Program-made: the position numbers and the translations under genes | The notes under the pieces: model-generated | Database searches by the model: none | What the model was told of the DNA's origin: nothing | What the model saw: the letters and a program-made list of their open reading frames with translations, nothing else | Assembly (NCBI GenBank): GCA_039545295.1 | Contig: BCIK01000005.1 | Location: 593,142 to 657,141, forward strand | From: Udeniomyces pyricola | Taxonomy: Eukaryota; Basidiomycota; Tremellomycetes; Cystofilobasidiales; Mrakiaceae | Direction: 5' to 3' | DNA: 64,000 nt | In this document: positions 227 through 51,172 of the stretch, piece after piece | Layout: each line of letters begins with the position of its first letter | Position numbering within the stretch: position 1 is the first letter of the stretch

Positions 227-3200
227 TTAGGCCTGCTTGACAGTGAACGCGGGAGAGAGCCAACTCTCGTAGTTGGCCTCTTGGCTGTCATCGCCAAAGA
301 ACTTGAGGCCTCGGACGAGGACTTTGTAGGTGCCATTGGGAACTTTGGTGCCCGAGGCGGTGTAGAGTCCATCACCGGCTCGAGCGGAAAGAGAGGTGCT
401 GAAATCTGTCAAATCCCAAGCGTCGAAAAGACAAAAGTTTAGGATCGTTTTGTCTGTCTTTGAATTTACCCATCGAGTCAAAAGACACGATTGAGAACAG
501 ACGAAGAAAGGTGTAGGAAAAGGAGAAGAGATCGACGAACAGAGGACACCGTTAGGATCTGTGGCACTAAAGGCGGCGCTTGAATGCCCGTTTCGGTAAT
601 TGTACAGGGCCTACAAGAAAGCAAGCGGAACGAAGTTGTCAGGACAAGATTGGCCTTGACCACTAACAAAACTAGACGACTAGGAAAGCAATGAAAGGCG
701 ATAGAAACAAGAGGAAGTTTATCGGTTAAACGATTTCACTCACCGTCTGCAACCTGCCCAAACTTCCAACCTCTGGCTCACTCGCTCTCTTGACGACCCT
801 CAAGAATCTCTTCTCGGTTCCAGCGGTCACGTTAACGCCGGATCCACCAATCGTCGGGTTGAAGAGCGTCTCGGCTGGGACGAGATCAAACAGCAACTTT
901 GCCGTGCCACCGATGAGCCGGTAGACAAGGTCGGGCTTATCGCCGTTAGCAAAAGTGTAGACTGGAGCAGAAGAAAGGGTAGGGACGGTAGTGGAGTTGG
1001 TCGAATCAGTGGTGTTGCTCGAAGAGGTCGAGTTGGTGACTGCAGAAGAGGTCGAAGGGAGAGGGATAAAGGTCGAAGTAGCGTTGCTGGCAGGAGTAGG
1101 CGTAGTTGAGTTGGCGGCGGCAACGATGCTGAGGTCAGAGAACGAGGTAGTGATCATCGATCGAGCATTGATGACTGCGACACCCGTGGCCGTCGAGGAG
1201 GAAGTACCGTTGATGGGCTCGTTAGTGTTGGGATCCACGAGGGCCGGAAGGGCGTAACCAAAGATGTCGTCGCTAGTATCGAAGATGGGGAAATCGCTGT
1301 ACATGGAGGCAGCAGTACCAGCATACGGGATGCTGTAAGACTGAGCACCATCGGCACTCTCGATCTTTACGAAGCCTGAGTAGACGGGAACGTGAGTCGC
1401 ATCCAGGCCAGAGGGCGCCGCGATAGTGACTTTGACTTCGGCACTTGCACCAGAGGCAACCGTGATGTAGGTCTCGGAGAAGGAAATTTGGGCGGAGCCG
1501 TCGACCTGCGGGACAGGACCCAGGTTGGGTTGAACCCCTTGCTCCCCGAATGTGAGGGCGGCCAAGGCTGGGGCGTGAGAGATTCGGTAAGAGGTCGATG
1601 AAGTTCCCGTGTTGGCGACGGTGACGGAAAAGGAGGTGATGGCGTGAAGAGTATCGTTGAGGGGAACCTCGCCCGGAGTGATATAGGTCTGGAACTTGAC
1701 GGCCGAGTACGCGTCGACGAGACCCGCACCTTGTTGGGCGACGGTCTGGAGAGAAGTGCCGTTGACAACCGTGGGAACACTACGTAGGACAGGAGAGACA
1801 GCGAGAGAAAGGCCAGTAACGTGTCAGTCAAGACCAGAGTGGTGCCGAGGCAGTGGGGAAGAGGAACAGGACGAATTCTCACGGCACAGCCGTGGTCTCG
1901 AGGATGGATCGAATAGAGATGGGATCCATCTTGCCGTTAACTTGGAGCATCAATGCAACAACTCCAGAGATGAAGGGGCACTGGCAAAGGAAGGAAGAAC
2001 CCGGACAAAAGAAAAAGAAGAAGAAAGTATTAAGACGATCAAATCAACTAATGGCCCAAAAGTGAGCCTGTTATTGCCTTTTGATCTGTAGCACAAAACA
2101 CTCACAGCCATCGAAGTTCCCGAGATAACAGTGTAGTTGCCGAGGTTGACTGGCCACGTGCTCAAGATGTTACCGCCAGGGGCGGCAACGGCTTGAAGCG
2201 TTCAGGTATGACGCGCAGTGGGAAGAATATACGTCAACATGAGTCGTCGATCTTGCCGACGTTGGGACCTCGACAACCGCTTTCCTAACAATCGCATCAA
2301 ACACTCACAAGGCTTAAAGTACTGATCAAGCGTCAAACCATACGACGTAAAGTCGCTGACGAGTCCTGGGGTCAAAGTATTGGCAAGGTTGTAGTAGGTC
2401 GAGGGGAACTTGATGGTGATTGAAGGATCCGCTTTGTACGCTTGTACGATCTTCTGGCCATCAGCCATGGTGAACGCTCCGCCCACGATAGGCTCGGTTC
2501 CAAAGTCAGGGGTAAGGGTTCCGGCGACATTGTTGTAGACGACGAGAATGGAACCTCCAGCGTTCAGGACGTTCTCGGCTTTAGTCGTGAAGGCACAGGC
2601 GCCCCGCATGGCAATGACGACTTTTCCAGCGAGGTCTTCGTCGATAGCAGCGCAGGCATTGCCATCAGCAGGGACGTAGATAGGGAAGGCTTGGTCGTGA
2701 GGGGGTTCGAAGCTGAGGGAGCTGACGCCAAAGGGCGTATCGGAGAAGGCCGAGACGATAGCGACGAGTGAGGGGGTAACAATGCTAGGAAGAGAGAGCA
2801 GGGAAGAAGACAGGACAGACGACATAGGGAAGGAGGCGCAGGGACGGTTGTGAGCCTTATCGGTTGGAGGGTCAGAGGACTACATTTGAACCAGTGTCAA
2901 ACGACTCACTTGTCGACCGATGAGACCGAAATCACGCCCAGCCCACTAGCGGGGGCCGATGTGTAGAACAAACCCTCATCGCCATCGTTACCCTGGGAAA
3001 TGGAAACGGGGATCCCAGTCTCGACAATTCGCTGAGCGACGACAGATTGGATATCCTCCGACCAACCGGCCGCACCTCCAAGAGACATGGAGATGACATT
3101 GGCTCCATCGTTCGCAGCTCGAATCATGGCAGCAACAATCTGCACAAAGATCCATGGAGACATCAGATGAGCGGATAACCACAGTTGATACGACTTGAGA

Positions 3201-4825
3201 TAATTTCCCGAGCAGACACAGCAAGATTGGAAAGAATGGAGGACTCACGACATCGCTCCCAGCAGAGCCCGTGCAACCAAAGACTCTGTACGCGGCCAGA
3301 GTCGCCTGGGGGGCGACACCCGTGAAGTTGAGCGGGTTTTGGTTGGCACCGATGATGCCTGCAACATGCGTGCCATGGCCGGAGCAGTCCTTAGGATCGT
3401 CGTCGGGAACCTGAAGAGCCAATAAAATGGGAACGAGGACAACCAATCAGAGACAGGACATCGAGAGCGGAATCTAAGAAAGGAAGTCCTAACGGGAGTG
3501 TTGTTGCCAGTGTAGGCGTCCCCGGCGAAGTCGTATCCCTTGGCGACCTTGCAGCCAGATCCACTGTGGTGGGGGTGGTCATAATCGAGATGAGTCAAGG
3601 GTAAGATGAGGATCCTTCAACCATAGAGGAATAAAGAACACCAAGGCGTAGACTTACAAGCATCCTCCGAGAGCCGGATGAGTGTAATCAATTCCCTATC
3701 ATGTTTATGATTATCCAACAGCAACGATCGAGATAGCAAGGTCAGTCGTGGTCTGAGTTGCTTACTCAACGCAGCCGGGAAAGTCAACGAACCGTATCGA
3801 TGATGGCCACTTGGATGCCAGCTCCGTAAATACCCATGTTGTGCAGTCGATCGACGCCCGTCATCTGATGAGTCGAGCTACATTTGACGAAGATGCGAGG
3901 TCGTAGGTTAAATCAAGCCACGATATCGTCAATTTCAAGTGACATTCAAATGGCCTAAACGACGCGCAGCAGCAGCCGCCCATCGTAGGCTACAATTCGA
4001 GCCGATTGACGCGTCAGCAACTGACAAGGTATCAGTCGGATTCTCCGATGAGCCTGAGATGATGCTGATCTCGTCACCGTACGGGTGAGGTCGCGGGATG
4101 AGTCGGACGGGGTAAATGGCTTTGACGGACGACATGTCCTGGACGGCCCTCAAATCCTGGAAAGCACAGAATTCGGTATCGACCGTATAGACGGAACGAA
4201 AAGAAGAGCAAAACGATACAACAAAGCCCAAGAGATCAGTTGAATCGTACGTCGTTGAGAACACATGTCTCGAGGGACGCAAGACATCAAGGATATCAAA
4301 TGATACGCCAATGGGCAGAAGTAGGAAGGGAGGGGGGGGGGACATAGGGGCAGTGCATTCAACTCACGGCATCATTCAGCTCAATCGAAGCCCCGATGAG
4401 GTATTCTGGCGAGTCAAACATCGAAACGACGGCGTACGGGATGGAAGCGCGCTTCATGTGTGAGTCAAAGTGAGCGTGGGCATCGAGTCCGGACGATCGT
4501 TTGGAGAAGGCGGAGGTATCCGAGAGTTCGACGATGTAACGGTTGGGAACGATGTTGGACGGCTGTGGATGGGTGTCCCGTAGGGAGAAGGTTGAGTGGA
4601 AAATAAAGGATGATGGCTTGTGTGAGAAAACGAAGGTGAACGACAAGCCAAAGAAGGCTTCGAGCCCGACGAAATGACAGAGCCGGCAGCTTCAAGTTGA
4701 GACGAGGTGGATGAAGAAGGAAGACGAGGCCAAAGCCAAGCACGCACGGCGGTGTGCTTGTAAGTCGCGTAGGCCGAGACGGAGGAAGCGACGGCCGCAA
4801 GGAGGGTGAATGACTGCAGGAGCAT
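227..4825 (-). CDS. Secreted subtilisin-like serine protease (S8) with PA domain, multi-exon
   Basis: Probable extracellular endopeptidase. The start at 4825 is followed by a hydrophobic signal peptide (LLQSFTLLAAVASSVSA). The next exon (about 4560-4371) has an I9-like propeptide (RYIVELSD...SIPYAVVSMFD). The catalytic Asp lies in VAIIDT|GIDYTHP, split by an intron near 3700-3790. The His is in CSGHGTHVAGIIG (about 3370) and the oxyanion Asn in SISQGNDGDEG (about 3000). A protease-associated (PA) insert occupies about 2330-2790, and the nucleophile is in VISGTSMA (about 2110). An Fn3-like C-terminal region follows (from about 1600) and the stop is at 227. I count about 14 exons, and the junctions I checked keep phase. 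Layout matches fungal Vpr-like 'minor extracellular protease' subtilases. All catalytic residues are present, so it should be active. The exact borders of the last three exons (227-1560) are less certain. Confidence 0.9.
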
Positions 4826-6515
4826 GGCAGACAGTTGTATCAAGGTCTAGGGTTCGCCTCGATAGTGAGAGATGAAGAGGGTGAGTGAGAAGGAGCGAAG
4901 AAACTAGGGTTGTAAGGGAGTGGTTTGGGTTCAGGCTGATCCGATCTGGGGGACGGCGGAGAGAGATAGTCGGATTGAGAGGTATCTAAGGAAGGACAGA
5001 GTGAGAAGAAGGAGTCGAAGCGTCGTTGAAGGACGACAGGGGCTCGTAAAGACGGAAAGAGCGGTCAGATGTGGATCGTGAGGCGAAAGGGAACAGAAAG
5101 AGAGGGGAAAGCGCAAGAGGAGAAAGAGGAGAAAGAGGAGGGGGGGGGGGGTTGGGGGACAAGTCCCTGGAAGAAGGACACGGGGGAGTTGTTTTTCCTC
5201 AAGACGCGTCTCAAGTCGAGCTGTGTCGAGAGTTGAAAGCTTCCTCGCTCATGATTCCATGATGATCATCCTCATCATCAAATCACGTGGCCGGCCTCAT
5301 CAGCCTCCGATCGACTATCCCTCGGCCCACACGGCCATGTCTAATTCTTGTCGATCTCGACATGCACACAATATCTGGCTCAACTTTTCTTCCAACAAAC
5401 AAACGCAACTCAGTGTCATCTGACCATACATGGTACTATCATGCCTGCAATGTCCCAGACTATATCATACATAAACGCTTGTCCATCCAATATCCACCCA
5501 TCGCTTGCCGACCACTCCTCGTATCGAAGGCTTTGCAGAAGAAAGACCGCGATTATCTGACGCACATTCCCTGCGCACGTCGTCCCGGCCATACGCTCTA
5601 ACTTCTCCGGCCGGTGTCTCCACCCGGTCCATGCGGTCACCGTGGGTTGCCGTGGGAGCGTTGGTCACCCTCTGCGTTTGCTGAAAAGATAATACGCATC
5701 ACTACGCTTTATATTAGCCGCTCCATCGAGAGCTGCAGTTGTCTCCGGTCAGTCGACATGACGACAATTATATGACGACATCCGCCTGCATGCTGACGGC
5801 AGCCTTAATAGATCTATGTACACGCGTTCACGCAGTCGGCAAAAGAGAAAAACGAAGCAGTAAGAGATCGAGGTACTTTTGTCTATGACGTCGTAGTACA
5901 GCAAGAGACTCATCGCGTACTTGACGATTCCGTTCGTACATGCTCAACGATAGCGAACCGAGATCCTTGGTACATGGCTGCTGCAGCCTGGGCGGGAGCG
6001 CGTTTGACAGTACGGTTGATATACATATTTGTTTATGCATAGGTCATGTTGCATGGACCCATGAAGCTCTTGCAATTGCACGTATGGCCAGGTCTGGCAA
6101 CCCATTCCACAAGCTGGGGTCGGGTCAGTTTCCGGCCACTCGCTTCGACTCCCCCGCTCTTGTCCTAACCACCTTCCTTCCAATCAATCGCCTCCAGCCG
6201 AGCTGCTTTGCCGCCCATTCAACAACGCCATACCCTACCGGTTCTTTACCTGCACAATCAGCCTCACACTGGCCTCAACATCCGTCCCACTCCGCCCTTA
6301 TCGCCCTCTGTCGCCCTCGCCAGTCGTATAGCCGAGCATATCAATCTATAGCCAAACCCACGCGTTGGCCTCTCGCTCTCGGGAACCCCTCCCCCCCCCC
6401 TTTGTTTTTCACCTCTTCAATCCTCGAATCTATCTTACAGATCCATCCTACCTGTGTTTTCTTGGAGTTCTTCTTGCCAGAAAATTGAATTGATACCTTT
6501 GACTATACGCATATC
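4826..6515. promoter_or_regulatory. Divergent intergenic region between subtilase (-) and OPT transporter (+)
   Basis: About 1.7 kb between two divergently transcribed genes. It holds purine-rich leader DNA of the protease near 4850-5160, a C run near 6390, and short open frames without family motifs or plausible splice chaining. I see no RNA gene or repeat family. It presumably carries both promoters; no specific binding site could be supported. Confidence 0.5.
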
Positions 6516-9500
6516 ATGCTCGCTCATCGACTCGCTTCGAGGACCGTCATGACCTCTGAACGCGTTGGTCATCCCTCTTTACCCTCCCGCTCTCTTCCTC
6601 ATCTGTTCCTCATCCACCTCGGTAGCTCCCTTCTTACCTCAATACTGATTCTTTCCTATCAATCGAAAACACAGGAACAAGGAACTCAGACTTCGCTTTC
6701 CTTTGAGACGTCTTCTTCGATCCGAGAGGAGTTCATGGCGCTGTTTCTAGAGGAGCAAGAGGAGGAGGAGCGGGCTCGATTGGAGGAGGAAAAGAAAGAC
6801 TGGGATAATCGCGAAAGAGGCGAAGATGGCGGAGGAGATGATAGTGGGATGAGTTATCGAAGAGGAGTCGGAGAGATGGATTGGGAGGAGCTGAAAGAGG
6901 TATGTCATACGATCGGGCGTGATTGGATAGGTAGAAAGAACGGATCCGAGCTGATCGGTCAGAACCGGTCATACGACCTGTTCTATCTGTACTTGATGAA
7001 CCAACGCAGATCCATTTATCTCACCTCTTAGATCCAAACTACGACAAGTCGCTGCTCCTTCGAGAACGTCAAACGCTGCTCCGCTTCGAAGAACGTCGTC
7101 CCTCCGCGGGTTCGACCCTTTCTCCCCCTCGGCATTCGCGAACATCTTCCCGGCCATCTTCCATGTCATTTCCATTGAGTTACTTGCCGAGTCTGTCGGC
7201 TGGAGGGGCTGTAGGGGGGGAAACGCGTTGGAGGGGAAGTACAGCTGGGATCGATGAAGCGGGCGAGCAAGGGACTGGTGGCAGAACAGGGCCTAATAGA
7301 TTGGAAGGGTTGTCCATCCACAACAGTAGCCGAGGAGAGCACATGGGGCAAGACTTAACTATGGGACTGGAAGATGTGTATACCGAGTGGGGATTTGATG
7401 AAGGGGAGGAGGACAGCGTCTACGCAGAGGTCAGGGCAGCCGTCGCGAATACGGACGACCCAACCATGCCAATCAATACGATTCGGGTCTGGGTATTGGG
7501 TGGCTTGGGGTCTATCGTACTCTCGGGAGTCAATCAGGTTGGTTCCCAATCTTGAAACAACCAGAAACGAGGGAGAGAAGTGTGTTGAGAATATGCTGAT
7601 GACGCTGGAGTCCCTCCAGTTCTTCTACTACCGCTACCCATCAGTTTCCGTTGCCTCTCTAGTCATTCAACTACTTTGTCACCCACTTGGTATAGCCATG
7701 TCGGTCATCATACCTCGTGGCCATTGGTTCTTCAATCCAGGCCCGTGGAACATCAAGGAGCACACGATCGTCACCGTATGTGCGGGTGTCGCCTCTGGCA
7801 CGGCCTACGCCACGAATAGTGAGTTGATATGGAGCACACTATCTCTCAGATATTCAAAGAGGATGAGAATACATAGAAGTTGATGATGGACGGGCCTCGA
7901 TTGGGTTGGATGGACCGCGGAATTGGCTGACAGTCGACATCCCCCCTCCCCTCCCCCTGTCTTTTTTTTTTTGCTTCTGATCCGACTTGTTTGGATCACC
8001 GGATAAAGTTATCACTGTTCAGAAATATTTTTAGTGCGGCATCTTTCTGATCATCGACCTTTGCTCTCGCTAACATTCTGAATTGTACTTATCTCGACCG
8101 ACCAATCTATTTGAACCCTTTTTTCGCACCGTTTTTTTTTTTTTTGCTTCATCTCCCTTCCATCCTATTTCCGTCCCATCCTGCAGCAACCAAAATTGGT
8201 CTTTCACCTACCAAGTCATGCTTGTTCTTTCGACGCAGCTCATCGGATTCTCCATGGGTGGCCTTCTGAGGAGGTTTCTTGTTTGGCCTGTAAGGACATT
8301 GTTCCTCTTATGGTATCGTAACGGGCCCATACATTTATGTTGGCTTGGAGGGAAAAAACAGAATATTCCCTCTGAATTTGGGACTGCGTTTCTGATCTTT
8401 TTGAATATATTGTTTTCCTGCTTGCTTGACTTCCATGCATCCCTGGATCCCCATTAGGCGGCAATGATTTGTAAATACATCATGATTTCTAGAAGCTGCC
8501 CTCTGTTGGCCGAGAAGAGATCTGATGTGTCTCGCTCTACCTCTTCAAATTGATCCTCATACGATTTTGATATGCTCCGATATTATTACTTATAGGGCCT
8601 GCAACGCTTGTCAACACTGCTCTCCTCAATACCCGTTCGTAGCCTTACCCAATGCCGCCATTCGCGTTTCCTACCGGTCGGCCGTCCCCCCTCCCCTCCC
8701 CCTCAATGCACTTGCTCTCGTCTGAAATATCCCACCCAGCTCACTCGTATCCTCTTCCTTTGCCTTGAAATCAATGTGGACACTCTTTCTTCAGTCCATA
8801 GCGGCGGTGTTTCATGTGGAGATTCCTCACGGGGCAGATTTTTCTATCGCGTAACGGCTGTGATGTTTGTTTGGACGTGGATGTGAGTTATCGATCCCAT
8901 TGCTTCATTTCCTTCTTCGCCTCTGGATCTTCGGTGTCGCTTCGCGTTTGGTGCCTTGTTAATTACGGATGTGCCCGCTCTTTCGTGATCGACATACGTT
9001 TGTGCAGACCATCATACCTCTTTACTGCTCTCAGCCATTTTGATTGGGTCACTTGGATGTACGTATATACCTCGTATTTCTTCGACCGTTCGGCATCAGT
9101 CAGATCGCGCGGAACAGACAAACGATGACTGAACGCCACTGCTCTCACATCGGTTTCTCCTTCGTCTTGTTGTCTGCACATCTCTATCTGCATCTCAATC
9201 CTCATATCCTCTTCGCTCACAGAGTACCAAACAATGCAGTCGTCAGCCAGTTGTTTGGTTGTTCGTTCCTCTCTCTCGTTCTTCGCTACAGCGTCCCATT
9301 CCATCCCTTCTTCCGATAGATTAACCATTTAATTCTTATTTATTTTGACCTTTTCAACACGCACTTAAACTCTTACGGTCGACCACCTAGACTCGCACGG
9401 GCTAGGTCTTTCCCTCATCACACTTGATTGTAAGATCGTCGCGCATCTTCTTTTTCCATCCCTGATCTGTCTCATCGACATAAGTCATGTATAGCCTCTT

Positions 9501-12500
9501 GAATGTTTCCTGACGCTTCGCTCCAAATTACTTGGATCACACATATCAGGGGGAATGGTGTCATCGATCGGAAACCCCTTAGCGATGCCTTGGTGGGCGT
9601 GTGCCAACAGTGCGTGTCTCGCTTGGAGCTTTGAACAGCTTAGCTGGCATCCTGCCCGTCTCATGCTCAGTTTGTTGATATTCCTACAAACTTGTTTTTA
9701 CCTGCTTGGCTTGTCTTGTGGTTGGTTTCCTCATAGTGCTTTTCGGGGTACGCAGTTCCTTCTTTGTTCTTCTGTCATTGTTGCCGGGTCCCCATGACCT
9801 AGGTCTCACCCTTTCTTATCCTCTCTCTCCCTTTTCCCTATGTATGTTGTTTCGGCGAACCTTAGTTCTTCGCTATTGTCTGTACACTCTACCCTGCGCT
9901 CTACTACAACGGTGCCTTTTCGAGTTGGTATATGCCCTTTGCGAGCTCGGGGTCGGTAAGTTTGGTCATTCATCATGTCATCTCGTATACCGTTCAAGTG
10001 AATGATAAGACGACCACTGATCATCGTGTACTACCATACATTATCGCGATGGTATATCATAGTACGACAACAGAGGTCGGATCTACAATACGAGTCGAAT
10101 CCTTACCTCCGACGCTGCGCTCAATGTCACGTTCGTCCTTCCATTCATTTCTTGTTGGCTCACCATCGATTGTCCAATGTTCATCCGAGACTGCACTCAC
10201 TCATTTTTCGGAACCCTTTTTTGGCTTTGGACCCAATCAGGGCGTACGAAGAGTACTCTGAAATTTACATCCCTATCACGTTTAGTATGAGCTACGCTAT
10301 GTCATTCGCCTGCGTCATGTCGACGCTTGTGCACACACTGTATGTATGCTATCTGACTTTAAGACCTCGTTTGCTGGACTCGGGGAAGGGAGAGAGAGGG
10401 TCTGCGATGAAAACGTGATGAGTTTCGCGGGCATTGACTTGCTTGCAACGACTGTTTTTGGACATAGGCTTTACTACCGCAAAGTTGTACGTCTCTCCTT
10501 TTTTTTTCGTGTTGCCGATCTTTGCCCTCGTTTTCAATGTCTTGGTTTCCAATCCATTCGGTATCTCGTGGTGAATGGCTCTCTTCTGGCTTTGCTCTAC
10601 GCTCCATTCATATATCCATCTCTTCAGATCTGGGCTCAAGCTCGCAAGGGATTGTATGACGAAAACGACATCCATGCTCGCCTCATGCGCAAGTACAAGG
10701 AAGTTCCCCGTGCGTTGCCTTGTCCCTAACCATTCGTTCTCTCATAAACCTTCCTTCCTATCAAGAAAACATGGAAACATGAAAAACATCCATGACTGTC
10801 AAACCAATCTTTGCTCACTTGCTAATCTCTCTGCTTCTTCTTCTTCTTCTTCTTCTCCTTCTCTTTTTTCGTGCAACCCGTCCTTGTGTTCAGAGTGGTG
10901 GTACATTGCTACGTTTCTTATCAATCTCGCCCTGGCCATTGGTGCTGTCGCCGGGTGGCCCACGTACGTCGCCCTAAGTCAATTAAGGGACGTGACTCGT
11001 GTAAGACTTTCCGACAGGTCGCTCACTCATTCGCTGCTTTCTCATTGACCGATGACGTATTGCGCGAATCCGACGACAGACGGATGCCAGTATGGAGTCT
11101 GTTCCTCGCGTACGTCATTTGTTCATCCTTGTCTTCATTTGTCCTGCACCTTCTTTCCTTGTGATTTCTTGGCCTCGCACCTGCTTGCCGTCCTTGTTCG
11201 TACAGAGAAACAATGCTGACAAGAAATGTCCCTCTTGCTTGGGCTCTCGATTCAACAGACTCTTCGTCGCCTTCTTTTTCGCCCTGCCGATCGGGATTGT
11301 CCAGGCTATCTCCAACCAACAGGTCGGCTTGAACGTGTACGTCATCATGGCTCCTCATCCGTACCATATGCTGGTTTGTAAATGATGTACTCAACAATCG
11401 TCTTACTCTGTTCTTCCATATCCTCGCGCTGCTGTATGCATCATCTCAACTTAGCGTCTCGGAGTTGATCATGTATGGCTTTCCGTCTGACCGATTATCT
11501 ATTCATGCACGAACACTCTGCTAGGTGCTGACTTCTGATCATCAACCTTTTTCTCCCTCTCCTCACTCTCAACCCCCCCCCCCCAACTTCTTTCTTCTCA
11601 CTTTACTTTCCTTTTCCCTCTCATCTGCCTTTGGGCGAAACAGAGGCTACCTGGTCCCTGGTTCGCCCGTCGCCATGATGATCTTTAAGACCTTTTCGTA
11701 CATCACCCTCGCTCAGGGTCTGAATTTTGTCTCGGACATGAAGCTTGTACGTCGTTGAATCGAGGATCAAAGAACATTCTCCCATTATATTCTTGTTTCT
11801 GTCTTCTTTTCGCCTCCCCTCCTCCCTCCCCACTTTTCCCCGGGAGGTCAACCTGTATCGTTTGTAAGCGCTTAGAATCTGACTTGGTCCATTCCTTGTG
11901 TTCTGCATCGTCGCTACCAATTGCTTTTTCAGGCACACTACATGAAGTGCGCGCCCCGGACAACTTTTGGTAACTCCTCTTCCCCCCCCCCCTCCTCCCC
12001 AAAGCAAAAGAAACCGTTTTCCTCTCTCGAGTTAGCTTCCTCGGCCCGTCGTTCAATCACGACGAACAAATCGAGAGATAGTTCTTTCCATTAATCCTCC
12101 GCTCTCAGACGGTTCATCATTCTTACCTTTTTTTTCTTTTGTGGCACTGCGATTCTAGTGGCGCAAGTACTGGCTACTGTACTTGGGGCATTCGTTCAGC
12201 TTGCCGTTAGCTCGTGGATGTACAACAATATCGATGGCAGTCAGTCAAACCTATCTCTCTCTCTTCCTTTTCATCTCTTCTTCCTGCCACTTTTTCCTCC
12301 TCTCTCTCTTGTGGAAACTACGCGCTGTGAAACGATCGTAAACATTCCCCTCTTCTCCTTCAATTGGGCTTGTGTATTCCATCCTTAGTGTGTGACTCAG
12401 AAAAATCCACCAATTTCTGGTGTCCGTCGGCGCAGACATTCGGGACATCTTCAGTGAGTCCAACCCCTGTTGAGGCCTCCTGTGCTTTTCTCAAATCGTT

Positions 12501-14141
12501 TGGTGGCCGCCGCGAGCTTGAATATCGGGCTCTTCTGATCTTCGGGTGTTTGATTCCTTGCCTTTGACCTCTAGATCATTTGGGGGCTTATTGGTCCAGG
12601 TATATCAGACCCTTCCCTCATACCATTGCCAATTCCTTCCTCATACCCTAAATCTCCTTTTTCGAGACTAACGTGACAAGCCTTCTCGGTTTTTGTTGAT
12701 TCTTATTCTTGCCAATTTAGCCCGTCAATTCTCGCCTGGTCGATTGTATTCTCCCATCCTTTGGGGCTTCCTTCTTGGAACGCTCGTACCCGTCCCGGGC
12801 TACATTCTTGCGCGAAAGTATCCGACGTCGTGGTTCAAGTACATCAATTTCCCCATGGTCTTCAACGTTACCGCCGTCAGTTGTCGTTTTTCTTTTGTTT
12901 CAAATTCATTCGCCCCATGGGTGGTTCGGAGTCATTTGTGGTTCAGAGTTTGGACGGTTCCCCGAATGCGAGACTGACGGATTGTATACTTGTATGCTTT
13001 TGTTGTTGTTGGTCACTTACATCTCTTGTTTTGGACTGATCTACAGCTCATGCCACCTTATCTACCTATCAACATCATTTCGTTCTGCTATACGAATTGT
13101 CCGTTTACCTTCTCGTCTTCTCTTCTTTTCCTCTCTCATTCTTCTCGCTTGTCTGTTTTGTCCACTCTGATCAAACACCTGAAAGCGAACCTTGACCTCT
13201 CTTTCTTCCTCCGCCCGTTCTTGGATCCCTTTTTCTAAGTTCTTTTCGAATATTGTAAGTTGACCTAATTCCCTTCTGTTCAGAATGCCATCTTCCTTTC
13301 TCTTTCTTTCGTATTTGATTGTCCAAAGTGTCCGAGGGAGCGAGGATGAATGTTGACTGATCTTTACTTGCCGGATTCTAGTCCTTCGCAAGTACCGTTT
13401 CAGATGGTGGTCTCGTTTCAACTACATCCTCTCCGCGGGATGTTCCACCGGATATGCCATTGCCGTCGTGCGTCCTCTATCCCAATCGTTTTCGTTTTCT
13501 TTCTTTTTTTTGCGTTCTTTAACCCATGCAAAGAGCCACATATTCGGATCCCTATTCGTCATGCCCTTCTAATTTTCTCTCACACGTTTCTCGTTCTTGT
13601 GGGCGGGATCAGATCTTTATCTTCTTTGCGTTCCAGTTCCCAATGAATGGCGAGATTGGCCAGTCTACCCTCGGAAGCTGGTGGGGCAACTCGGTTTATG
13701 AGTCAGTTTCTTTCTCCTCTTTCTTTCTCTCTTTCTCTCCGTTCTTTCTTTTCTTGATTTCGGTTGCCAGGTAGTGGGGTGTCCTTGTTTGAGACTGACC
13801 AGGTGTGACCGCTATCTCCTTTCGTTTGATACTACCTTCTCTTCCCTTTCAACTTCTTGCTTCTCTCACTGCCTTCCCTCCTTCGGTAATATATCAGACA
13901 CACGGCCGATGCCCATCGGGTACCTTACAAGACGCTTAACGAGGGTCAAAGGATCGGTCATATTATCCCAGTTCGTCTCCACTCCCTCTTCTCCTTCTCC
14001 CACGTGCATCCAGTTGCAGTCACGAAATGCATGAAGGCTCACATCCACATGCCTTTCAATCTTCTTGTTCCCTGCCTGCTCGATGGACGCGTAGATATCG
14101 GGTACGCATCCAACGACCAACTTCTTGGAGAATTGACCTAA
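6516..14141 (+). CDS. OPT-family oligopeptide transporter, 33 exons
   Basis: Proton-coupled oligopeptide transporter of the plasma membrane (OPT family). Chaining exons by splice signals and phase gives 33 exons and 1024 codons. Exon ends: 6516-6899, 7010-7537, 7620-7818, 8009-8033, 8187-8289, 8458-8470, 8596-8634, 8795-8882, 9008-9058, 9223-9257, 9391-9429, 9550-9609, 9737-9747, 9866-9955, 10063-10130, 10241-10339, 10468-10486, 10628-10709, 10894-10963, 11080-11109, 11259-11336, 11455-11472, 11644-11746, 11933-11969, 12159-12239, 12389-12453, 12575-12593, 12721-12875, 13047-13098, 13240-13254, 13382-13467, 13613-13701, 13898-14141. Family marks include EVRAAVANTDDP, NQNWSFTYQ, IGNPLAMPWWA, DIHARLMRKYKE, ISNQQVGLN, YLVPGSPVAMM and KYRFRWWSRFNY. 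A Glu-rich cytosolic N-terminus precedes the first membrane segment. Many membrane helices are assembled across tiny exons. The first exon's start and the last exon after HTADAHRVPYKTL are the least certain parts. Confidence 0.88.
8009..8033 (+). other. 25-nt exon of the OPT gene
   Basis: Flanked by AAAG and GTGCGG. It carries phase 1 to phase 2 and encodes IITVQKYFY across its borders, the family segment between AYATN and NQNWSF. Without it the flanking exons are out of frame with each other. Confidence 0.8.
8458..8470 (+). other. 13-nt microexon of the OPT gene
   Basis: Flanked by ATTAG and GTAAAT. It supplies A-A-M-I plus the first base of W, joining FLVWP to PATLVNTALLNT. This restores the expected VWP..MIWP motif and the frame. 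Confidence 0.8.
9737..9747 (+). other. 11-nt microexon of the OPT gene
   Basis: Sequence TGCTTTTCGGG, flanked by CATAG and GTACGC. It shifts phase 1 to phase 0 and gives PWWACAN-MLFG-FFAIVCTLYP, matching the spacing expected in OPT proteins. No other AG/GT pair nearby restores the frame. Confidence 0.72.
13240..13254 (+). other. 15-nt microexon of the OPT gene
   Basis: Flanked by TCTAAG and GTAAGT. It joins INIISFCYTN to FLRKYRFRWW through LFEY, the usual hydrophobic bridge before the RWW motif. Incoming and outgoing phase are both 1. Confidence 0.75.
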
Positions 14142-14925
14142 CTCTTCAAAGAGAAAAAGAAACCACTATCCGTCTAGATCACATTGTTTGCTTTTGCTCT
14201 GTTATTCTCCTTCTATTTCTCTCGCTCTCTTCAATACCTAGTTCTCATTCTATTCCCTATCTTTCTCTCTCTTTTTTTTCGCTCGTAATGTTTCGCGTTG
14301 ATGTCCTTCCTTGCCTGTGTTTAGTCAATCTACCCCTGCTTCTTACTCCATCGCCTCTAATCTCCTTTCATACATACGCCTGGACTTGGTCCTCGTCAAA
14401 CCCTTGCTCTTCCTCGCACTTCTTCTCTCCTGTCAAAATCGGCGTTGTACAGATATCTTTTCTTAACCCCCCCCCCTTCCTTCCTTCTTCCTTCTTCCTT
14501 CCCCTTCATCTAGCTCGATAGCTTTGCCAGTAACTGCCTCTTCTCTTTTTCTTCCATCTTTTCGTGCATGTTTCACATCTCCATCTTGTCGCAGCTAGCT
14601 TATGGTTTTGTTCTTCTTCTTTCCTTTTCTCCTCCTATATCATCTCTCTTTCTCTATCAGCTCAAGTCTATCTCACGTTCGATTTGTTGATGAGTCCAAT
14701 CAGCTTCGTCATGGATCGATGCTGTTCCAGCTTCTATGACATGATTCGAATTAGGTTGCGGCCAGTCGACTTTGATTCGCGAGCGTTGACACATTGCAGC
14801 AGCTAGCTCATGCTGGTCGAGTCGTCGTCGATATGGATCTAATGTCCTTCTCTCTCTGACACAAACTGAATAGAAATTTGATTTGATTCGACATGGATGA
14901 TTTTTGCGAGAACGATGTGTGAGTG

Positions 14926-14958
<33 letters not shown>

Positions 14959-15160
14959 CATATTGATGAGATGGGCGTGACGTAATTAATGGATTGGGCC
15001 ATTGGGAGGCTCGATCGATCGAGAAATGCGATCGGATCCATCGTCATCTGCTCATCATCACCGCTTGCATCCTTCCCTGCTTTCCACCGTCTCACTCAAA
15101 CCAGCACATACACCCACACCCAAACACACAATCCTCACCACTCCTACTACATCATCAACC
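14142..15160. other. Intergenic, pyrimidine-rich, with (GAT)n tract
   Basis: About 1 kb of T/C-rich DNA downstream of the OPT gene, then AT-richer DNA with a (GAT)n run at about 14925-14956. I found no gene-like exon chain. It holds the 3' end of the transporter transcript and the promoter of the next gene. Confidence 0.5.
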
Positions 15161-15793
15161 ATGTCCGCTACTTCCCTCATGCAGTCCCTTCGATCAGCCG
15201 TCCGAACCCCTACCCTCGCTCGGTCGTTCCGAACGACTCTCCCCGCTTGCTCCACTCACGGTTACGGTTCGTCGTTCATGTTTCTCTCTCTCCTCCGCTC
15301 CTTCGTCCTCTTCCTCTCCTCCCGACGTTCATGTTTCGTCTAACGTCCTACATCACGCCACCTGGTGGATTGACGAAACCTGGCTCTTGTTCACGGGGAA
15401 TGAAATCATGTCACGATGGCATCCAATTCAAATATATCTTGTACTGACTTTCTCTGTCGTGTTCTGTCTTGCTCTGTTTCGCATCCATCTCCTTTTCCCA
15501 TTCTTCCATTCGGCATCTCTCATCTTGATTCCCATTCCCTTACCTCCTCTCTTACCTCTACAGGTCACCCCGTTCAGCCTGAGGATGTCCCCTCTGCTGC
15601 CACCGAAGGCAAGGACTCCTCTTCCTCTTCCTCATCGCCTTCTAAGGGTGAATCCGTCGAGGGCATGCCCACTCCCAACGCCGACGCCAAAGAGTCTGCC
15701 GGTGATCAGTCCAAGCCTCACTACAAGTGCGAGCCCGAGAACGAGGGTGGAAAGGAGGATCCCGCTAAGCTCGTCAAGCCTGAGGACAAGTAG
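15161..15793 (+). CDS. Small protein with mitochondrial-type N-terminus, unrecognised
   Basis: Two exons, 15161-15266 and 15564-15793, joined in phase (GYG|HPVQPEDV; donor GTTCGT, acceptor ACAG). The product is about 111 residues. The first 30 residues are rich in Arg, Ser and Thr without acids (SLRSAVRTPTLARSFRTTL), which looks like a mitochondrial presequence. The rest is polar and acidic, with a run of Ser, and ends KLVKPEDK. There is no membrane segment or known catalytic motif. Many fungi encode short mitochondrial proteins of this type, but I do not recognise the family. The ATG has a good context (ACC ATG T). A pyrimidine-rich 3' flank follows. Confidence 0.72.
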
Positions 15794-17772: not shown

Positions 17773-18311
17773 GGATGATGAGGACGATGAAGGAAGAAAA
17801 AGAGAATTGATGGAATGATCGTGGGCGGGCATAGGTTCAGTTTGGTTCTGTGAATCGACAGTTCCTCGGAGATGAAAAACCTGTCTGTCTATCTTTCTCA
17901 ACAGCTAGGATACTTTTTTTTTTTTTTTATCATCTCTCTTTTGCTTCTCTTTTCTGATTCTGTGGCGCTTGTGTTTTTTTTTAACTTGTGGGATAAGAAT
18001 GAACGGAAGTGGGTCTTTCTGCTTCGTTCTCTGCTGCAAGTTGTGCCGTTGAAAAAAANNNNNNNNNNNNNNNNNNNNNNNNNNNNNNNNNNNNNNNNNN
18101 NNNNNNNNNNNNNNNNNNNNNNNNNNNNNNNNNNNNNNNNNNNNNNNNNNNNNNNNNNNNNNNNNNNNNNNNNNNNNNNNNNNNNNNNNNNNNNNNNNNN
18201 NNNNNNNNNNNNNNNNNNNNNNNNNNNNNNNNNNNNNNNNNNNNNNNNNNNNNNNNNNNNNNNNNNNNNNNNNNNNNNNNNNNNNNNNNNNNNNNNNNNN
18301 NNNGTTTGAAT

Positions 18312-20840: not shown

Positions 20841-23777
20841 GTGATGGAGGAGGGAATAGCGTGTGTGTGAAGGGAAAGGCAAGGTCAAGATCAGCTACTA
20901 GTTGAGACGTGCCAAGTCAAGTCGAAGAAGGTACTGTACTGACGAGGGAGTGCATAACCCCGGCTGCAAGTTACACGTCGTCTGTGGTACTACGGGTTCA
21001 GGTCGGTCGTAAGCTCGAGGTGAGAACGCGACGAGGTTGAATTGGGTTGTTTGAGCGAACGAATTGCTGCGCGGCAGGCGCGTCATACGCGTTGATCATA
21101 GATCAACTAGTCATATCATACCGCGTACGTACCTGATGTACAAAAGTGTACACGAATATATCAGACGCGCCTTTTTTTCCGTCCCTTTTTCTTCTGGCCA
21201 CATTATATGTACCCCTTGCGTACGAACGTGTGAGCGACATCCCATATCCCATGATCTCAGTCAAGGTTCTTTGACTTGCAGCGTGTATACATCATGGAAT
21301 GTATCTCGTGAGCACTTCAATTCAACGACCTCTGCATGAAACATAGGTTCAATCGACATATTGTCGACACGTCTCAGCGCGTCAGCAGCTGAGCGCTGAT
21401 TATGTAATCTTCCGATCTATGTAAACTTGGCAAAACTACTCAATTAGCACCCACAGAGCCCGATCGGCATTACTTGCAGTAGCTTGTGGAGCTGACTAGC
21501 AGACTCCTCCACTTCCTGCGGCGTATAAAGGTAACGACTCTGGCCGACCGCGCGTTGATGCGTTGACGTGTGGCTCTGAGACGGTACGTATAACGTACAC
21601 CGTGCACCGATATCGAACCGATGATGGCAGATCCAAGCAGGTCCATACGGAATATTGCTCCCTTGCTGGCCAAGTGATGATCAATGAACGACAAGAAAGG
21701 GCTCGATCACCCGACCGAGAGATTCCCGGCTGTCGCCGAGCTGCCGAGCCAAAAGCTTGATTTCATGAAACTCATTTTATACAACCGGTACGGTATATTG
21801 AAAGATGCCGGTGCGCTAGTGGTCAGAACAACGGAAGATATATAGTACAAGCGAGCGTCTCGCAGACGCATACGGTACCACAATTAGATGTCTGAGCTGT
21901 AGTTGATGTCTGACGAGAGTAAAAATACAGTAGACGAAGGAATCGGCGAGGCATCGATGATGTCAATCGTATGGAAAAAGATTCGGAGGACGAATTACGA
22001 AACCACCTCGCGACGAGATCGATGATAAGAGGATGCGATCACTCGTGCCGACTGCCTCATCTTTACGCAGCATCTCAATCGACCTCAGGCCAAGCCGAGG
22101 CTCATCTTGACTCGACCCACTTTCGCTTTCTCTCCGATCTCAACGTCTCAACGAAGCAACGTGCAATCCCACCACACACCCCGGTCTGGCGGTCTGTCAT
22201 CTGAGCTCTGACCAGTACCTTGTCACTTTCGCTTTCTCTTCACCCGCTTCCTGTGATCCACACCAGGGAGGGCCAACCCCCCCCCCCTCTCGCCGCCTTA
22301 ATCATTGACTGCCTGAGTGGTCGTTTGCACTCGGAATCCTTGCTTCCCGGCCCTTCCTTCGTTCAACTCTCGACGCGTCGCTCGGCGCCCGCCGCCGATC
22401 TCGATCGACCTGAGCTTTCGTTGTTGCGGTGAGTGATTGGGATGATGGATGGAACTGGTGTATATATATACACATACATCAATATGATGACGACATGGCC
22501 CGTGATGGAGGGGCAAGCCAAAAAAAAAAAAAAAAAAAAAAAAGATTCNCCGACCNANGCNANCCNCTCTGCCTAGCTGGTCGTCTCTCTGTGGGTGTGT
22601 TTCCATGACTGACCGGGGCTTCCTTCCCTTCTGTCCTCCCCCTCTCTCCTTCCCCTCTCCTCTCCCTCTCGCCGGTTTCCCCTTCGTTCTCGCCCCCTGT
22701 TTCGTCCCATCTTCTGGCCACTCTTGGCACTCGGCATACCGTTCCAACCTCTCCCCTCTCTTCCCCCTATACGGACGCCTCCCCTCTTGTAGCATCCCCA
22801 CGCACGCCTCTAGAAGGGCCACTCCTCTCCGGCAGACCCCCTCTCTGGTCGCCTTCAGCCAGCCGAACGCGTGAGTTACTTTGCTTCCTTTTCTCTAGAC
22901 GTGAAACAAGTCGACGTCTCGCTCGTCATCCCTTCTCTGGCTCCCGGTCCTGTCCTCTGTCTCGTATCGGCTCCCTTGGTGTCCTCTCTCAGTCGACAGC
23001 TTGCTCGAGCTGTCATCCAGCTCCAACCTAATCCGTCCCAGCGCAAAGCCTTGCTAGCGTCTTCCCTGCGGTTGTCTCCGCTCGTCGCGTCTGGTGGAAT
23101 CAACTCCGCCCTTTCCTTCCAATTCGGCTCGCCCTTCCGTCCTCCGTTCCCGGCTCCCGTTCGCCTAACGCTCCTGGACTCTCTCTATCCGACGGTTTCC
23201 AACGACGTACCCACGGCCTGCTCTTAGATCCACGCTATTTCAGCCGGTCGACCATACACATTACTCACAAAAGAGGGTTCAATCCTTGAATAACTGTGGC
23301 TGACGATCCGATCAACTGTCCCTCTCCTTCGGCTCTTACTCCTTCCCCTTCTCCTTCCAACATCTTCCGCACGGTCCCCGACCCCCTGTTTCTTACCATC
23401 CTGGCTCGTCACCGATCCTCGCTTTTCCTTTTCCTCCCCTCCATCAAGTCCCATTTTCTCGCAAGACAACCTACTTGCGTCTGTCCCGATACTCGCGTTA
23501 CCTCTCCTCGATAGATGTATGTCACCGTTTCGATTCCCATCCAGTGCTCGAGCTCCGGGAGCCAGGGTGCGCCCTCGGGTCCCTGGGCTTTCTTGACCCT
23601 CCTTCTGCTCTTGCTCCTGAAAGCAAGCATCAGGGCTGACCATACCTTCCATCAATCACTGTTCACCTTGTCCCGTATCCACTTCCATATTCTCCTCTGT
23701 GAATCATATCCGCCTCCGCTTGCTCCCATGAAAACACAACCGCTAGCAACCCTTCTCTAGCACGCTACGCATTCGCA
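20841..23777. other. Long intergenic / leader region
   Basis: The left part (20.9-22.2 kb) is AT-richer, with short palindromes and no convincing exon. The first exon of the minus-strand gene may hide in 20850-21100. From 22.2 kb the plus strand becomes C/T-rich up to the start at 23778, as expected for a long pyrimidine-rich 5' leader with introns. A (TA)n tract lies at about 22461-22470, an A run at 22519-22543 and Ns at 22549-22566. Short frames here show no protein family. Confidence 0.45.
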
Positions 23778-46315: not shown

Positions 46316-49300
46316 ATGCCATCCACGGCACCCACATCCTCATCCCTTGCCCGGACAATCCCCTTGCTCATCTCTCTGGGATCCCGTCTCGTCCGAGCCT
46401 CACCCCTCTATGCGATCAACGCCCTCGCCGACACTGGCCTCGCCCACGTCGCCGGCCACAAAAAGCACGATGAGCCGACAATGACGCAGCAAGAGTATTG
46501 GCTCAAACTTGCCATCTCTATGGTGCTTGTAGTGACAGGTGGGGTCTTTGCTGGGTGAGTCGTCTGGGAGATGACCGAATACATAAGCCCAGATGGGCAA
46601 GGGGGCAAGGGGGGGGGGGGGGGTCAATCGTCGGCTGGATGGATGGGCTGATTGATCCTTGGGAAAGTGGTGACGATTCCCCCCTTCTCTTTGCTTTCCT
46701 CGTCTGTTTCCTTCCTTGCTTTCCTGCTAGCTAGTCGCCATCTTCCATCACCAATTTGCAATCTAGCTGACTAAACTTTGTTGTCGTATTCAACTCACAA
46801 TCCACCTCCCTGCACACTTCTCATGACGCTCGCCCTACCCCCAGGGTAAGCATTCGACGCGTCGTCCCTTTTGCTCGGACCGATCCTTTTCGCTCGCTCT
46901 TTCGCTTTCCATCGTCTTGGGACCTGACATGAAACCTACTGCGCATTCGCTTGCTTTCTCCGTTTCTCTTCCTGCCTCTTTCTCTTCTCTTTCCTCACAT
47001 CACCTGTCCTTGTCTTGTTCTCCGACGTCTTCTCGATGGCGATCGATCGATATTTGACGTTGGGCCGAAACAGTTGACGCTCGGTCTCATGGGTTAGCAA
47101 TTCTCTCTCACTCTCTGCTTCTTCTGTTCCTTTTTCTTTCCCTGATCGAAATTAAACCATCGAGCCTGCTCTAGCACATGCCAGCGATATAACAACAACA
47201 ACAACAACAAAACCCATTCTTCACTTTTCTCCCAACAAAAACTGAATCAATCGTATTCTCTCCCCATGTGTGCTTTCATAGGTCTTGATCCACTTCATCT
47301 TCGAGTCCTCCAATCTTCGTCCGACGACGAGACCGAACGCAAGCATGCTCGCAAGGTGCTCAAACTGCTCAATCGAGGTCGCCATTGGGTCCTCGTTGTT
47401 CTTCTCCTGGGGAATGGTCCGTCACAGCTTCTTCACTCTCGCCTTTTCATTCTTTTTCTCTCCTGTCTTTCAAGGGAGGACTCGCGCATGTAGACATCTT
47501 CATCCGTTCTTACGTATATCTTCTCTCCTTCCTGATGATGATGTAACGTCCGATCAGTCGTCGTCAACGAATCGTAAGCTATTCAACCCACAATCCTCCA
47601 AAGGGAAATCATGGGATCGAGCTTTCACATTCCTCTCCCTCGGATGACGAATGGATTCTCTGGTTTCAATCGACCATTCCACCGTCTACATTCCTCACCC
47701 TTATGTTTTCTTCTCTCGTCTTCCCTTCTATGGCGGCGCACGCGTAGCCTTCCGATCTTCCTCGACTCGGTCCTTGGCGGTAAGTGCGGGTTTGCTCTTT
47801 CTTAACTCATTGTCTCTGCTCACGCGCGATCCATATTTCTCACCCAGGAGCGAGAGGGATGAGAGGAAATGATACCTTCAACCAAAACTTTACAAACCAT
47901 TGAGACTGACAAATCGACCTTGACCGGTTTACTTTCTTGTTGCTCTTTCTCTTGACCGGGTGCTTGAACATGCACTATCAGGCGGTATCTCAGCTGTCAT
48001 TGCGTCTACTGTCCTCATTGGTACAGATCTTATTTCCGTTTTCTTCTTTCTCTCTTCTTCTTGCTCCTATATTGCTCCGTTCATCGTTCACTAATCTCAA
48101 GTCCAAACCCTCTTTCCCATGCCATCTCTTTTCGCCCTTCTATCGCTCGCGCTTTTGCCTTTCTCCTTCTCCTGCCTGTGCATTGTCACTACCTCTCCAT
48201 CGGCAGTCATCTTTGGAGAAATCATTCCTCAATCGGTCTGTGTCCGGTACGGGCTTGGCATCGGAGCGTTCGCCGCGCCGTTTGTCTTGTTTATGATGTT
48301 CGTATCGCTTTTCCCATCTTCTCGCAACTCATTCACTCGTACGCGCAACTTCTCCTCCACGAGCCTTCGATTCATCACCGCTCCCTTGACTACCTCCTTG
48401 TATCCGACTCCTTCCGCCTTGGATACATCTATCCAACCATCTCACGTCATGTCTCATGCCTTCCACTCCACCTTTTGCTTCCCTACTTTGGCTCGCACCC
48501 ACTCAAAAAAAAAAAAAAAAACCGTGACCTCAACTAACCCATCAATCGACCAAAAAAACCAACACAACCTTAGGTATCTCTTTGCCCCGGTCGCGTGGCC
48601 GATCGCAAAGTTCCTCGATTATGTATTGGGTGCGAACGAAGAGCACGTACGTTGTCTTTTCTTGAATTTTCTCGCTTATCTGATTCCACGAGAATCTCCC
48701 TTCTTATCACGGTCTTCTCATCCCGTGGTTCTCCTCTCCCGCCCCTTTTTTCTATTCTTATTTTGTCACTTTCACATCTCCACTCATTTAACCAAACGAA
48801 CATTTTTACTCTCCAGACGTACAAGAAGGCCGAGCTCAAGTCGTTCTTGCAGTTCCACCGAGAAGGCGAAGAGTACGTTTTTGGTTTATTCTTGGCTCTC
48901 TTTTCTTTCTGCTCTTCTGCGTCGCGTGTAATTTTTCTGGTTTTCAACATTTCAGTCGGGGTTCAGTCGGGGGAAAGAGCGGGGGAAAGAGGAGGGGCGA
49001 AACGAAGAAGAGTTAGAAAAGAAGGAGAGAGGAGACGAGTAGTTGGTTCGAGTTTGACTGATCCTTCCTTCGTTTCTTTCTCTCAGGCCCTTGCGAAACG
49101 ACGGTCAGCAGATTTCGCATTCTATTGTTTGCTTTCCTTATGTGTGGATCTAGTCATTGAGCTGGTAGCTTAATCGGGTTCCGTCCCAATGCATCGCGTA
49201 TCCCCTCACCCTCTCTTGTGTTCTTCTCTATCTTGCCCGCCTTTCTCCTCCTTCTCTCCCCCCCCCCCCTTTCGGACTTTTCAGAAATCACGATTCTCAC

Positions 49301-51172
49301 TGGCGTACTCTCGCTCAATAATACTCAAGCCAGGGACATCATGACGCCTATTCAAGACGTCCTCACTTTGAGTGCCGACACGAAACTCGATCACGAACAG
49401 ATCGATCAAATCTTGTGAGCATTCCTTTTGTTTATCTATATATACATGTGTTCTGTTCAGTCCTCATGTTCTCTTCCCTGGCTTCCATCGTCAACCTTGT
49501 TTTCCTGACTCTTGTGTTCTGTTTCTTCTCCCTTTTGTAACGTACGTGTGTATCTCCTGCTTTGCTGATCTGACCTGGGGTGGGGATCAATAGGCTGAGT
49601 GGGTTTTCTCGAATCCCAGTCCACGAGCCTAAGCGACCGAAATCGTTCATTGGGATGCTCCTCATCAAGAAAGTCAGTCCCTTCATACCTCCTTTCCTTT
49701 TCTTTTTCTTCTTTTTGTTCGATCTTTCTCTCTATATCTGTCTGTTTTCCTTCTTACTCTATCCATCTCCTTCTGACGAGTCTTGTTCCCTTGGACACCT
49801 GGTTCGATCCATTCTCACGCTCTCAATTATCTTATTCTTCTCGTTCTTCCTTGATTTCACCATCCCCCGCTCGTTTACTTTCCTCTCCCTTTTAGCTCCT
49901 TCTGTATAACCCCGAAGAAGCGCTCCCCGTGTCGTCATTCCCGCTCTCGACGCTGCCAGAAGCCAAGCCGACGATCAACTGCTTTCAGGCGCTCGATTAC
50001 TTCCAAACGGGCCGAGCTCATCTGCTTATGATCTCAGAGACACCTGGGTTGGAAGGCGGAGGTTGGTCACATCTTTCCCTTTTTTGAAGTCAAGGCGAAG
50101 GGAAAGGGGGAGGGGGGGAGTAAGATGTGGATTTCAGGTTTCTCTTGTTTTGTTGTTGTTGCTCGGTATGTTTTCGATGCAAGATGACTGACTATCTCTG
50201 CACCTTTTCGCTTCGTTTCCTGCATCATCCGTCGCCCCTACTTCTCTCCATCTTATGTCCTCTTGCAAAAACCTCCTTGGCGCCCCTCCACTCCTCCACT
50301 TCCACTTCCTCCCCTTCAGCTATCGGCGTCATTTCCCTCGAAGACCTCATCGAAGAGATCATTGGCGAAGAAATCGTCGACGAAACCGATCGATACGTTG
50401 ATAACCGGGGTAAGAAGGCCGCCCGTCGGACCTCGAGCGCCGACGTCATGAAGGGTATCATTGAGCGCGAGAGACGGAAGTTGGTCAGGGCCGCGACGGG
50501 CTTGGGTGGCAATGGAGGTGGTCTTTCAGCGGTGGGAAGCCAGGTCCCGAGTCGAGCGGATGTAGGTTCTCTCTCTCCATCTCTTTCTCTCTTTTCCGCG
50601 TGATTCGTTCTCTCTTACGCAGAGCGTTGTCTCGGTTTTCTCACCTACTATCTCATACCGACCGTAAACATCCCAACTGATTCATCACCCCCACCCTTCC
50701 CGCCTCCCCTGCCCTGCCCTTTCTCCTCTTCCTCCTCCTTCTTCTTCTTCTTCTTTCAGACGCCGTTGCGGATCGATGAAGAAGACGCGATCGATGACCA
50801 AGATCTCTCGCGCGCCGAGACCCGAAGCTTGCTCGAAGCCCGGAAAGCCCCGGACTGTACGTTCCCATTTCTCCTCCTCCCCCTTCCCTCTTTCACACAT
50901 ACATCACTTTACGCCCTCCTCCCAATTGCCATTTCGGGTCGTTGAGATGAAGTCGCCAGTGAAGACGTAACTTAGGGGATGAATGAAGCATCTCTTTCTT
51001 TACTAATCCCATATGATGTCTATGTGTGTATGCCTTTCTTGCTTCTATCCCTTTTGCCCCCCCCCTCCCTCCCTCCTTCCTTTCTCCTTCCCTCTCTTCT
51101 GTCCGTCCATCGACGTGAACAAACTCGACAAAAGACGGCTCGACTCTCTCGACTTCACCTAAGAACATCTAG
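46316..51172 (+). CDS. Mam3/CNNM-type DUF21-CBS membrane protein, 17 exons including a 1-nt exon
   Basis: Fungal relative of yeast Mam3 and animal CNNM proteins, linked to divalent-metal homeostasis in vacuolar or plasma membranes. Exons: 46316-46554, 46845 (1 nt), 47074-47092, 47282-47416, 47558-47573, 47748-47779, 47982-48020, 48207-48297, 48574-48646, 48817-48872, 49087-49103, 49285-49414, 49594-49672, 49896-50061, 50320-50561, 50760-50856, 51135-51172; 1470 bases, 489 codons, all phases consistent. DUF21 marks: [44 protein letters not shown] part: [48 protein letters not shown] and [19 protein letters not shown]. The N-terminus (before DUF21) has one hydrophobic segment. The final short exon ([11 protein letters not shown]) is the least certain. 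No signal of a fused domain. Confidence 0.88.
46845..46845 (+). other. Predicted single-nucleotide exon (G)
   Basis: In the context CCCCCAG|G|GTAAGC. The upstream exon ends with two bases of a Gly codon (donor GTGAGT) and the next exon begins exactly with the Leu codon of LTLGLMGLD. One inserted base makes the conserved AG-LTLGLMG. Direct joining would give a TGA stop. No RNA evidence is available here. Confidence 0.65.
47558..47573 (+). other. 16-nt exon of the Mam3-like gene
   Basis: Flanked by GATCAG and GTAAGC. It encodes VVNE across phase 1 to phase 2, joining LLLGNV to SLPIFLD as in DUF21 proteins. Confidence 0.8.
49087..49103 (+). other. 17-nt exon of the Mam3-like gene
   Basis: Flanked by CTCAG and GTCAGC. 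It encodes PLRND and joins FHREGEE to [11 protein letters not shown], the start of the CBS region. Phases 2 to 1 fit both neighbours. Confidence 0.8.

Follow-up and report, generated by a model that had tools for sequence, protein, structure and literature searches.

A putative one-base exon in a Mam3/CNNM-type gene of Udeniomyces pyricola

The Mam3/CNNM gene and its setting

The window analysed here, by which we mean the whole stretch of 64,000 nucleotides, belongs to a genome of 25.0 Mb in 38 contigs with a GC content of about 52%. Its positions 46316-50856 encode on the plus strand a Mam3/CNNM-type protein, recognised by the Pfam CNNM transmembrane domain (PF01595, E 8.8e-35). No match to a CBS domain was found in the query protein; PF00571 is present in some homologs. 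Among the best 120 of 2,408 homologs, P0001 from Mrakia frigida ranks first by a wide margin (79% identity, 711 bits; the runner-up reaches 594 bits), and P0023 from Phaffia rhodozyma (72% identity) is only found at rank 23, amid mushrooms of similar identity. Other genes predicted in the window include a 16-exon gene at 95-5338 (minus strand) for a subtilase-type protease (Pfam Peptidase_S8) and a 21-exon gene at 6516-15793 (plus strand) for an OPT oligopeptide transporter. Rfam gave no match on the window at the gathering score.

The intron density of this genome is very high. A simple gene finder was trained on 264 kb, about 1% of the genome, consisting of the window and 20 stretches of 10 kb, and in this sample 488 introns were counted in 58 predicted genes. 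This agrees with a published survey, in which the Cystofilobasidiales are the order richest in introns per gene, with 7.5 for P. rhodozyma and 8.2 for Mrakia blollopis (PMC5103461), and the high density is counted in favour of the one-base exon described below. Taken together, the top-ranking M. frigida homolog, the GC content and the intron count suggest a placement in the Cystofilobasidiales, which is tentative as it depends mainly on a single protein.

The gene model used here extends to 50856 and comprises 16 exons and 15 junctions. Its parts around the gap between exon 1 and exon 3 are as follows.

46316-46554, plus strand: exon 1, 239 nt; its last two bases, GG, begin the Gly80 codon
46555-46844, plus strand: intron 1, 290 nt, GTGAGT...CCCCCAG; presumably the younger intron, one base upstream of the old one
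46845-46845, plus strand: putative exon of a single base, G, which completes codon Gly80 as its third base; sole AGNGT in the gap
46846-47073, plus strand: intron 2, 228 nt, GTAAGC...AAACAG; position and phase match an intron of the paralog L031
47074-47092, plus strand: exon 3, 19 nt; LTLGLM plus one base
47282-50856, plus strand: exons 4-16, the remainder of the Mam3/CNNM gene, with introns of 141-276 nt from intron 3 on and exons of 16 and 17 nt included

Very short exons occur three times in this gene, each of them in phase: 47074-47092 (19 nt), 47558-47573 (16 nt) and 49087-49103 (17 nt). An earlier note on this DNA, in which the one-base exon was proposed, stated that the other 15 junctions of the gene keep phase. 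That they are in phase holds, and the count has to be corrected to 13. Of these, 12 lie inside the gap-free part of the alignment to P0001, and the last one, at codon 445, lies outside. The frame of exon 1 is upheld by the same alignment from VRASP (residue 26) onward.

The base missing between exon 1 and exon 3

Exon 1 ends with TTT GCT GG at 46554, followed by GTGAGT, and the exon at 47074 opens with TTG ACG CTC; as assembled, the genomic sequence at the end of exon 1 is GCTGGGTGAGT. Joining 46554 directly to 47074 leads to GGVFAG and a stop codon, one base added at this join gives FAGLTLGLMGLD, and with the lone G at 46845 the translation reads GGVFAGLTLGLMGLD. The boundaries given in the earlier note are right (the sequence shows GCTGG/GTGAGT at 46554/46555, CCCCCAG/G/GTAAGC with the G at 46845, and AAACAG/TTGACG at 47073/47074), as is its statement that the direct join runs from FAG into a stop and that the added G restores the motif. 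The mature mRNA junction would be ...TTTGCTGGGTTGACGCTC with the one-base exon and ...GCTGGTTGACG with the direct join.

The motif is conserved. FAG or FSG is immediately followed by LTLGLMGLD or LTLALMGSD in 114 of the best 120 of 2,408 homologs, and the remaining six deviate later in the motif and have likewise no residue at the boundary, so that G and L are separated by zero residues in all 120. Because these homologs join G and L without an insert, exactly one base is absent from the flanking exons. Together with the alignment to M. frigida P0001, which runs without gaps from residue 51 to 421, the motif indicates that the frame break is genuine in the given sequence and confined to one codon. 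The M. frigida protein itself is annotated with an ordinary join, a hint, counted against the present case, that the one-base exon may be missing there.

Related proteins (E<=0.001) are encoded at two further loci, L030 on contig C24 and L031 on contig C4. L031 contains a phase-0 intron of 185 nt at the FAG/LTL boundary (GGG/GTAAGT...CTTAG/TTGACC), which is the same position as that of intron 2. The CNNM-like L030 (C24:52501-56500, minus strand) carries no intron there (GCCGGATTGACA).

All ways to obtain GGVFAGLTLGLM were enumerated for introns of at least 40 nt and a middle exon of at most 300 nt, with the start kept fixed and likewise the end of exon 3. Within these length limits no single GT/GC-AG intron yields the motif. 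Exactly one solution with two introns was found, namely 46555-46844, the G at 46845, and 46846-47073; an AGNGT occurs just once in the 519-base gap. Two related arrangements were rejected. In a [D1,2] stwintron the donor would be split; the GTAAGC donor at 46846 is intact and unsplit, and the two-intron enumeration yields the one-base exon alone (nested layouts were weighed by hand). A recursive splice site with a zero-nucleotide exon does not apply, as a G that is needed for the frame intervenes between AG and GT.

Splice sites, chance and rival explanations

The scores of the candidate sites are 5.53 nats for the donor at 46555, 4.30 for the donor at 46846, 2.67 for the acceptor at 46845 and 1.87 for the acceptor at 47074. 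They are not circular, since neither the final parse of the gene finder nor its final training set contains these sites. Nine of the gene's remaining 13 introns have a donor that scores lower than the one at 46555, and five a donor that scores lower than the one at 46846; for the acceptors the corresponding numbers are five (46845) and four (47074). All candidate sites thus score inside the range of these introns.

For a genome-wide comparison we used 159 high-confidence introns, 156 of them outside this gene, because the gene finder misses exons and its intron lengths therefore carry a false long tail. In the Mam3/CNNM gene, run unguided and with one-base exons allowed, it did not pick the one-base-exon path, missed exons 2, 3, 5, 6 and 7, and also put the end of exon 1 and that of exon 10 in other places. 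Within the reference set the donor at 46555 stands at the 51st percentile, the donor GTAAGC at the 21st, and the acceptors CCCCCAG and AAACAG at the 6th and 4th, so both acceptors are weak genome-wide. To call the acceptor and donor around the G perfect, as was done in the earlier note, is overstated.

Elsewhere, the gene finder predicted two exons of 0 nt and one of 2 nt, which we do not believe without homology. The two 0-nt exons (AG then GT) lie in the C2 block (L015-L019) on the plus strand at 0-based offsets 32928 and 39272 and are possibly recursive splice sites or artefacts of the model.

TGAC-type motifs are located 19 and 75 nt from the end of intron 1, and a TTGAC 17 nt from the end of intron 2. 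CTGAC and TTGAC are enriched 2.6-2.7-fold near intron ends in the 264-kb sample, and eight of the 13 other introns of the gene have an NTRAY motif at most 80 nt from their end. These branch-like motifs are taken as weak support, because YTRAC is present at just 62 of 155 sampled intron ends compared to 19 of 86 control stretches.

As a single intron, the gap of 519 nt would be an outlier in length. The 13 other introns measure 141-276 nt, and a length of at least 519 nt is reached by one of the 156 high-confidence introns outside the gene. The likelihood ratio in favour of two introns is 156 if based on the gene's own 13 introns and 2.9 if based on the genome sample; given the latter value, intron length is treated as modest evidence.

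A site of this quality is hardly expected by chance. In 31,543 positions of predicted introns AGNGT occurs 30 times, once with an acceptor of at least 2.6 and a donor of at least 4.2 nats, thresholds set just under the candidate's 2.67 and 4.30. This corresponds to 0.0117 comparable AG-N-GT sites in the 369 eligible positions of the gap, or to 0.007 if the whole sample is taken on both strands (10 in 528,000 bases). The one-base-exon path beats a direct join with an indel by 9.25, 7.25 and 5.25 nats if the indel is penalised with 12, 10 and 8, respectively; the true margin is smaller, because the exon-length term of the model favours one-base exons generously.

Since the enumeration yields no other canonical solution with one or two introns, and since this one outscores the direct join with an indel, the G at 46845 is probably a real, though still putative, one-base exon of the Mam3/CNNM gene. 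The enumeration and the margin of 5.25-9.25 nats in the splice model hence speak for the interpretation of the earlier note, as a reading of the genomic sequence.

The main rival is an assembly or sequencing error that shortened a GGGG run, where exon 1 ends, by one G. The genomic DNA would then read GCTGGGGTGAGT, the true gene would have one phase-0 intron of 519 nt (GGG/GTGAGT...AG/TTG), and the AGGGT at 46843 would be a chance match. This single added base mends everything and gives the exact position and phase of the L031 intron, and for that reason the paralog does not tell a dropped base from a one-base exon. Unresolved places do exist in the assembly, as the window holds eight single N and a 245-base run of N. 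However, the run at issue consists of merely three or four G, the intron would exceed the next longest of the gene by 243 nt, and an AG-N-GT as good as this one is expected only 0.007-0.012 times. The lost base is also the less likely reading because just one apparent frameshift was found in 106,835 predicted coding bases of 52 genes, in a count made at a penalty of 12 nats which includes well-supported shifts only, so that errors masked by false introns or weakly supported go uncounted. That a base was lost exactly where a good decoy site lies nearby is unlikely, though one-base exons are rare too. Overall we regard a lost base as quite improbable.

The N of the window are located at 18059-18303 (the 245-base run), 18937, 22549-22566 and 37986. 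The sole apparent frameshift of the sampled coding sequence lies in the C2 block (L015-L019), minus strand, at offset 14361.

Two further explanations are very hard to credit. A single intron could link exon 1 directly to LTLGLM if one of its ends were non-canonical (GT...CA, TG...AG or GA...GT). The enumeration gave exactly three boundary pairs of this kind, close to the two exon ends, that encode the motif, but all three break the GT-AG rule with canonical sites lying one base off. The other explanation is a cryptic exon of larger size with 3n+1 bases, for which the gap offers 12 stop-free AG...GT segments of fitting length (10-142 nt), all of which would add residues between Gly and Leu inside a conserved motif where none of the best 120 of 2,408 homologs has any.

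Known one-base exons and possible history

One-nucleotide exons are known from few genes. We have to update the remark of the earlier note that none is known in fungi, since Nelson and Syed (2026, PMC12940212) have described such an exon, backed by RNA reads, for 20 orthologs of Fusarium CYP621A and claim it as the first in any fungal gene. Both cases concern a nuclear fungal gene with the lone base in an AGGGT and in the Gly codon of a conserved motif, in both the frame is broken on omission of the base, and both were overlooked by annotation. In contrast to the Fusarium base, which is central in its Gly codon and known from 20 orthologs and RNA reads, the one described here is the third base of the codon in a basidiomycete gene, known from genomic sequence plus a paralog intron at the same place. 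The plant precedent APC11 named in the earlier note is confirmed (PMC4674806), and VPS55 was added by Yu et al. 2022 (PMC8831610). In these genes a single base likewise stands between canonical sites, and the gap of APC11 is of similar size with the base 333 nt into 422 nt. However, they are plant genes and experimentally proven, while the present exon is predicted from sequence, and in moss APC11 the base can also belong to the preceding exon.

Fungal [D1,2] stwintrons (PMC5639578) resemble the arrangement in that two introns are in direct contact and removed consecutively. There the internal intron splits the donor of the other between bases 1 and 2, whereas here the upstream intron is one exonic base away and neither intron is disrupted. 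At recursive splice sites, too, an acceptor adjoins a donor and the first splice rebuilds the donor context, but here one base separates the two and is retained in the mRNA. Mitochondria also have single bases between two introns, in placozoan cox1 (PMC5436844), where the introns are of group I and the base is proposed to have been cut off when an intron inserted next to it, and in Ophiostoma rnl (PMC12308204); these are self-splicing group I or II introns and not spliceosomal ones. A search of the microexon and intron-gain literature, covering titles and the beginnings of abstracts for 15 of 79 papers, found no one-base exon in Basidiomycota. If real, ours would be the second fungal nuclear gene with a one-base exon and, as far as our literature searches reached, the first in a basidiomycete. 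Genes of this type are likely misread by standard annotation.

We infer that two ordinary U2-type introns flank a single exonic G. Exon definition is hardly possible with one base, so recognition presumably proceeds by intron definition, with stepwise removal of the two introns. If the upstream intron is removed first, the joining would restore a normal exon end, GCTGGG/GTAAGC, for the second step; the reverse order would likewise yield GGG TTG and thus a correct mRNA.

Comparison with L031 suggests how this may have arisen. Of the eight mappable introns in the predicted L031 model, two match introns of this gene to the base (P about 0.005 under random placement) and a third is one base off. 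Because its exact position and phase are common with L031, the downstream intron (46846-47073) is probably old. It would be a phase-0 intron between Gly and Leu of FAG/LTLGLM with the exon end GGG/GTAAGC. In the simplest history the upstream intron (46555-46844) would have been gained later, one base before that boundary (GG^G/GT), and thereby isolated the last G of GGG. An introner origin was rejected, as each of the two introns matches only its own place in the genome at E<=10 in a search that skips simple repeats and very common words. Intron 1 does not appear as a duplicate of intron 2 either; blastn gave short matches only, the best of 21 nt with E 0.008.

A different history was proposed by Nelson and Syed for Fusarium CYP621A (PMC12940212). 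Applied here, exon 1 would truly have lost one base at its end and been rescued by a cryptic AGGGT within a once-single intron. The one-base exon would still be real, so this explanation takes its share, a minor one, from within the probability given to such an exon. It is compatible with the paralog intron as well, but the ancestral intron would have to measure about 520 nt, exceptionally long for this gene, and to contain from the outset a site so good that only about 0.01 of its kind are expected. We consider it unlikely. The paralog points instead to intron gain beside an old intron, a route distinct from deletion and rescue.

The third, nearly matching pair of introns lies at Lys309. In the numbering of this gene, its own intron follows CDS nt 927 (window 49672/49896) and that of L031 follows nt 926 (2778/2937), an offset which is possibly a completed one-base intron shift. 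A one-nucleotide intron shift was reportedly described by Fekete et al. 2017. A tentative suggestion, which we would sooner doubt than believe, is that one-base exons are a normal, short-lived stage when introns slide in the most intron-dense fungi. A newly gained intron would settle at a distance of one base from an old one, and if either of them were lost later, a one-base shift would remain; Gly80 would then represent the intermediate and Lys309, compared to the paralog, the completed shift. More one-base exons would accordingly be expected in Cystofilobasidiales genomes, and the Mam3/CNNM gene would allow a clean test of the idea that introns shift by one base via a two-intron stage.
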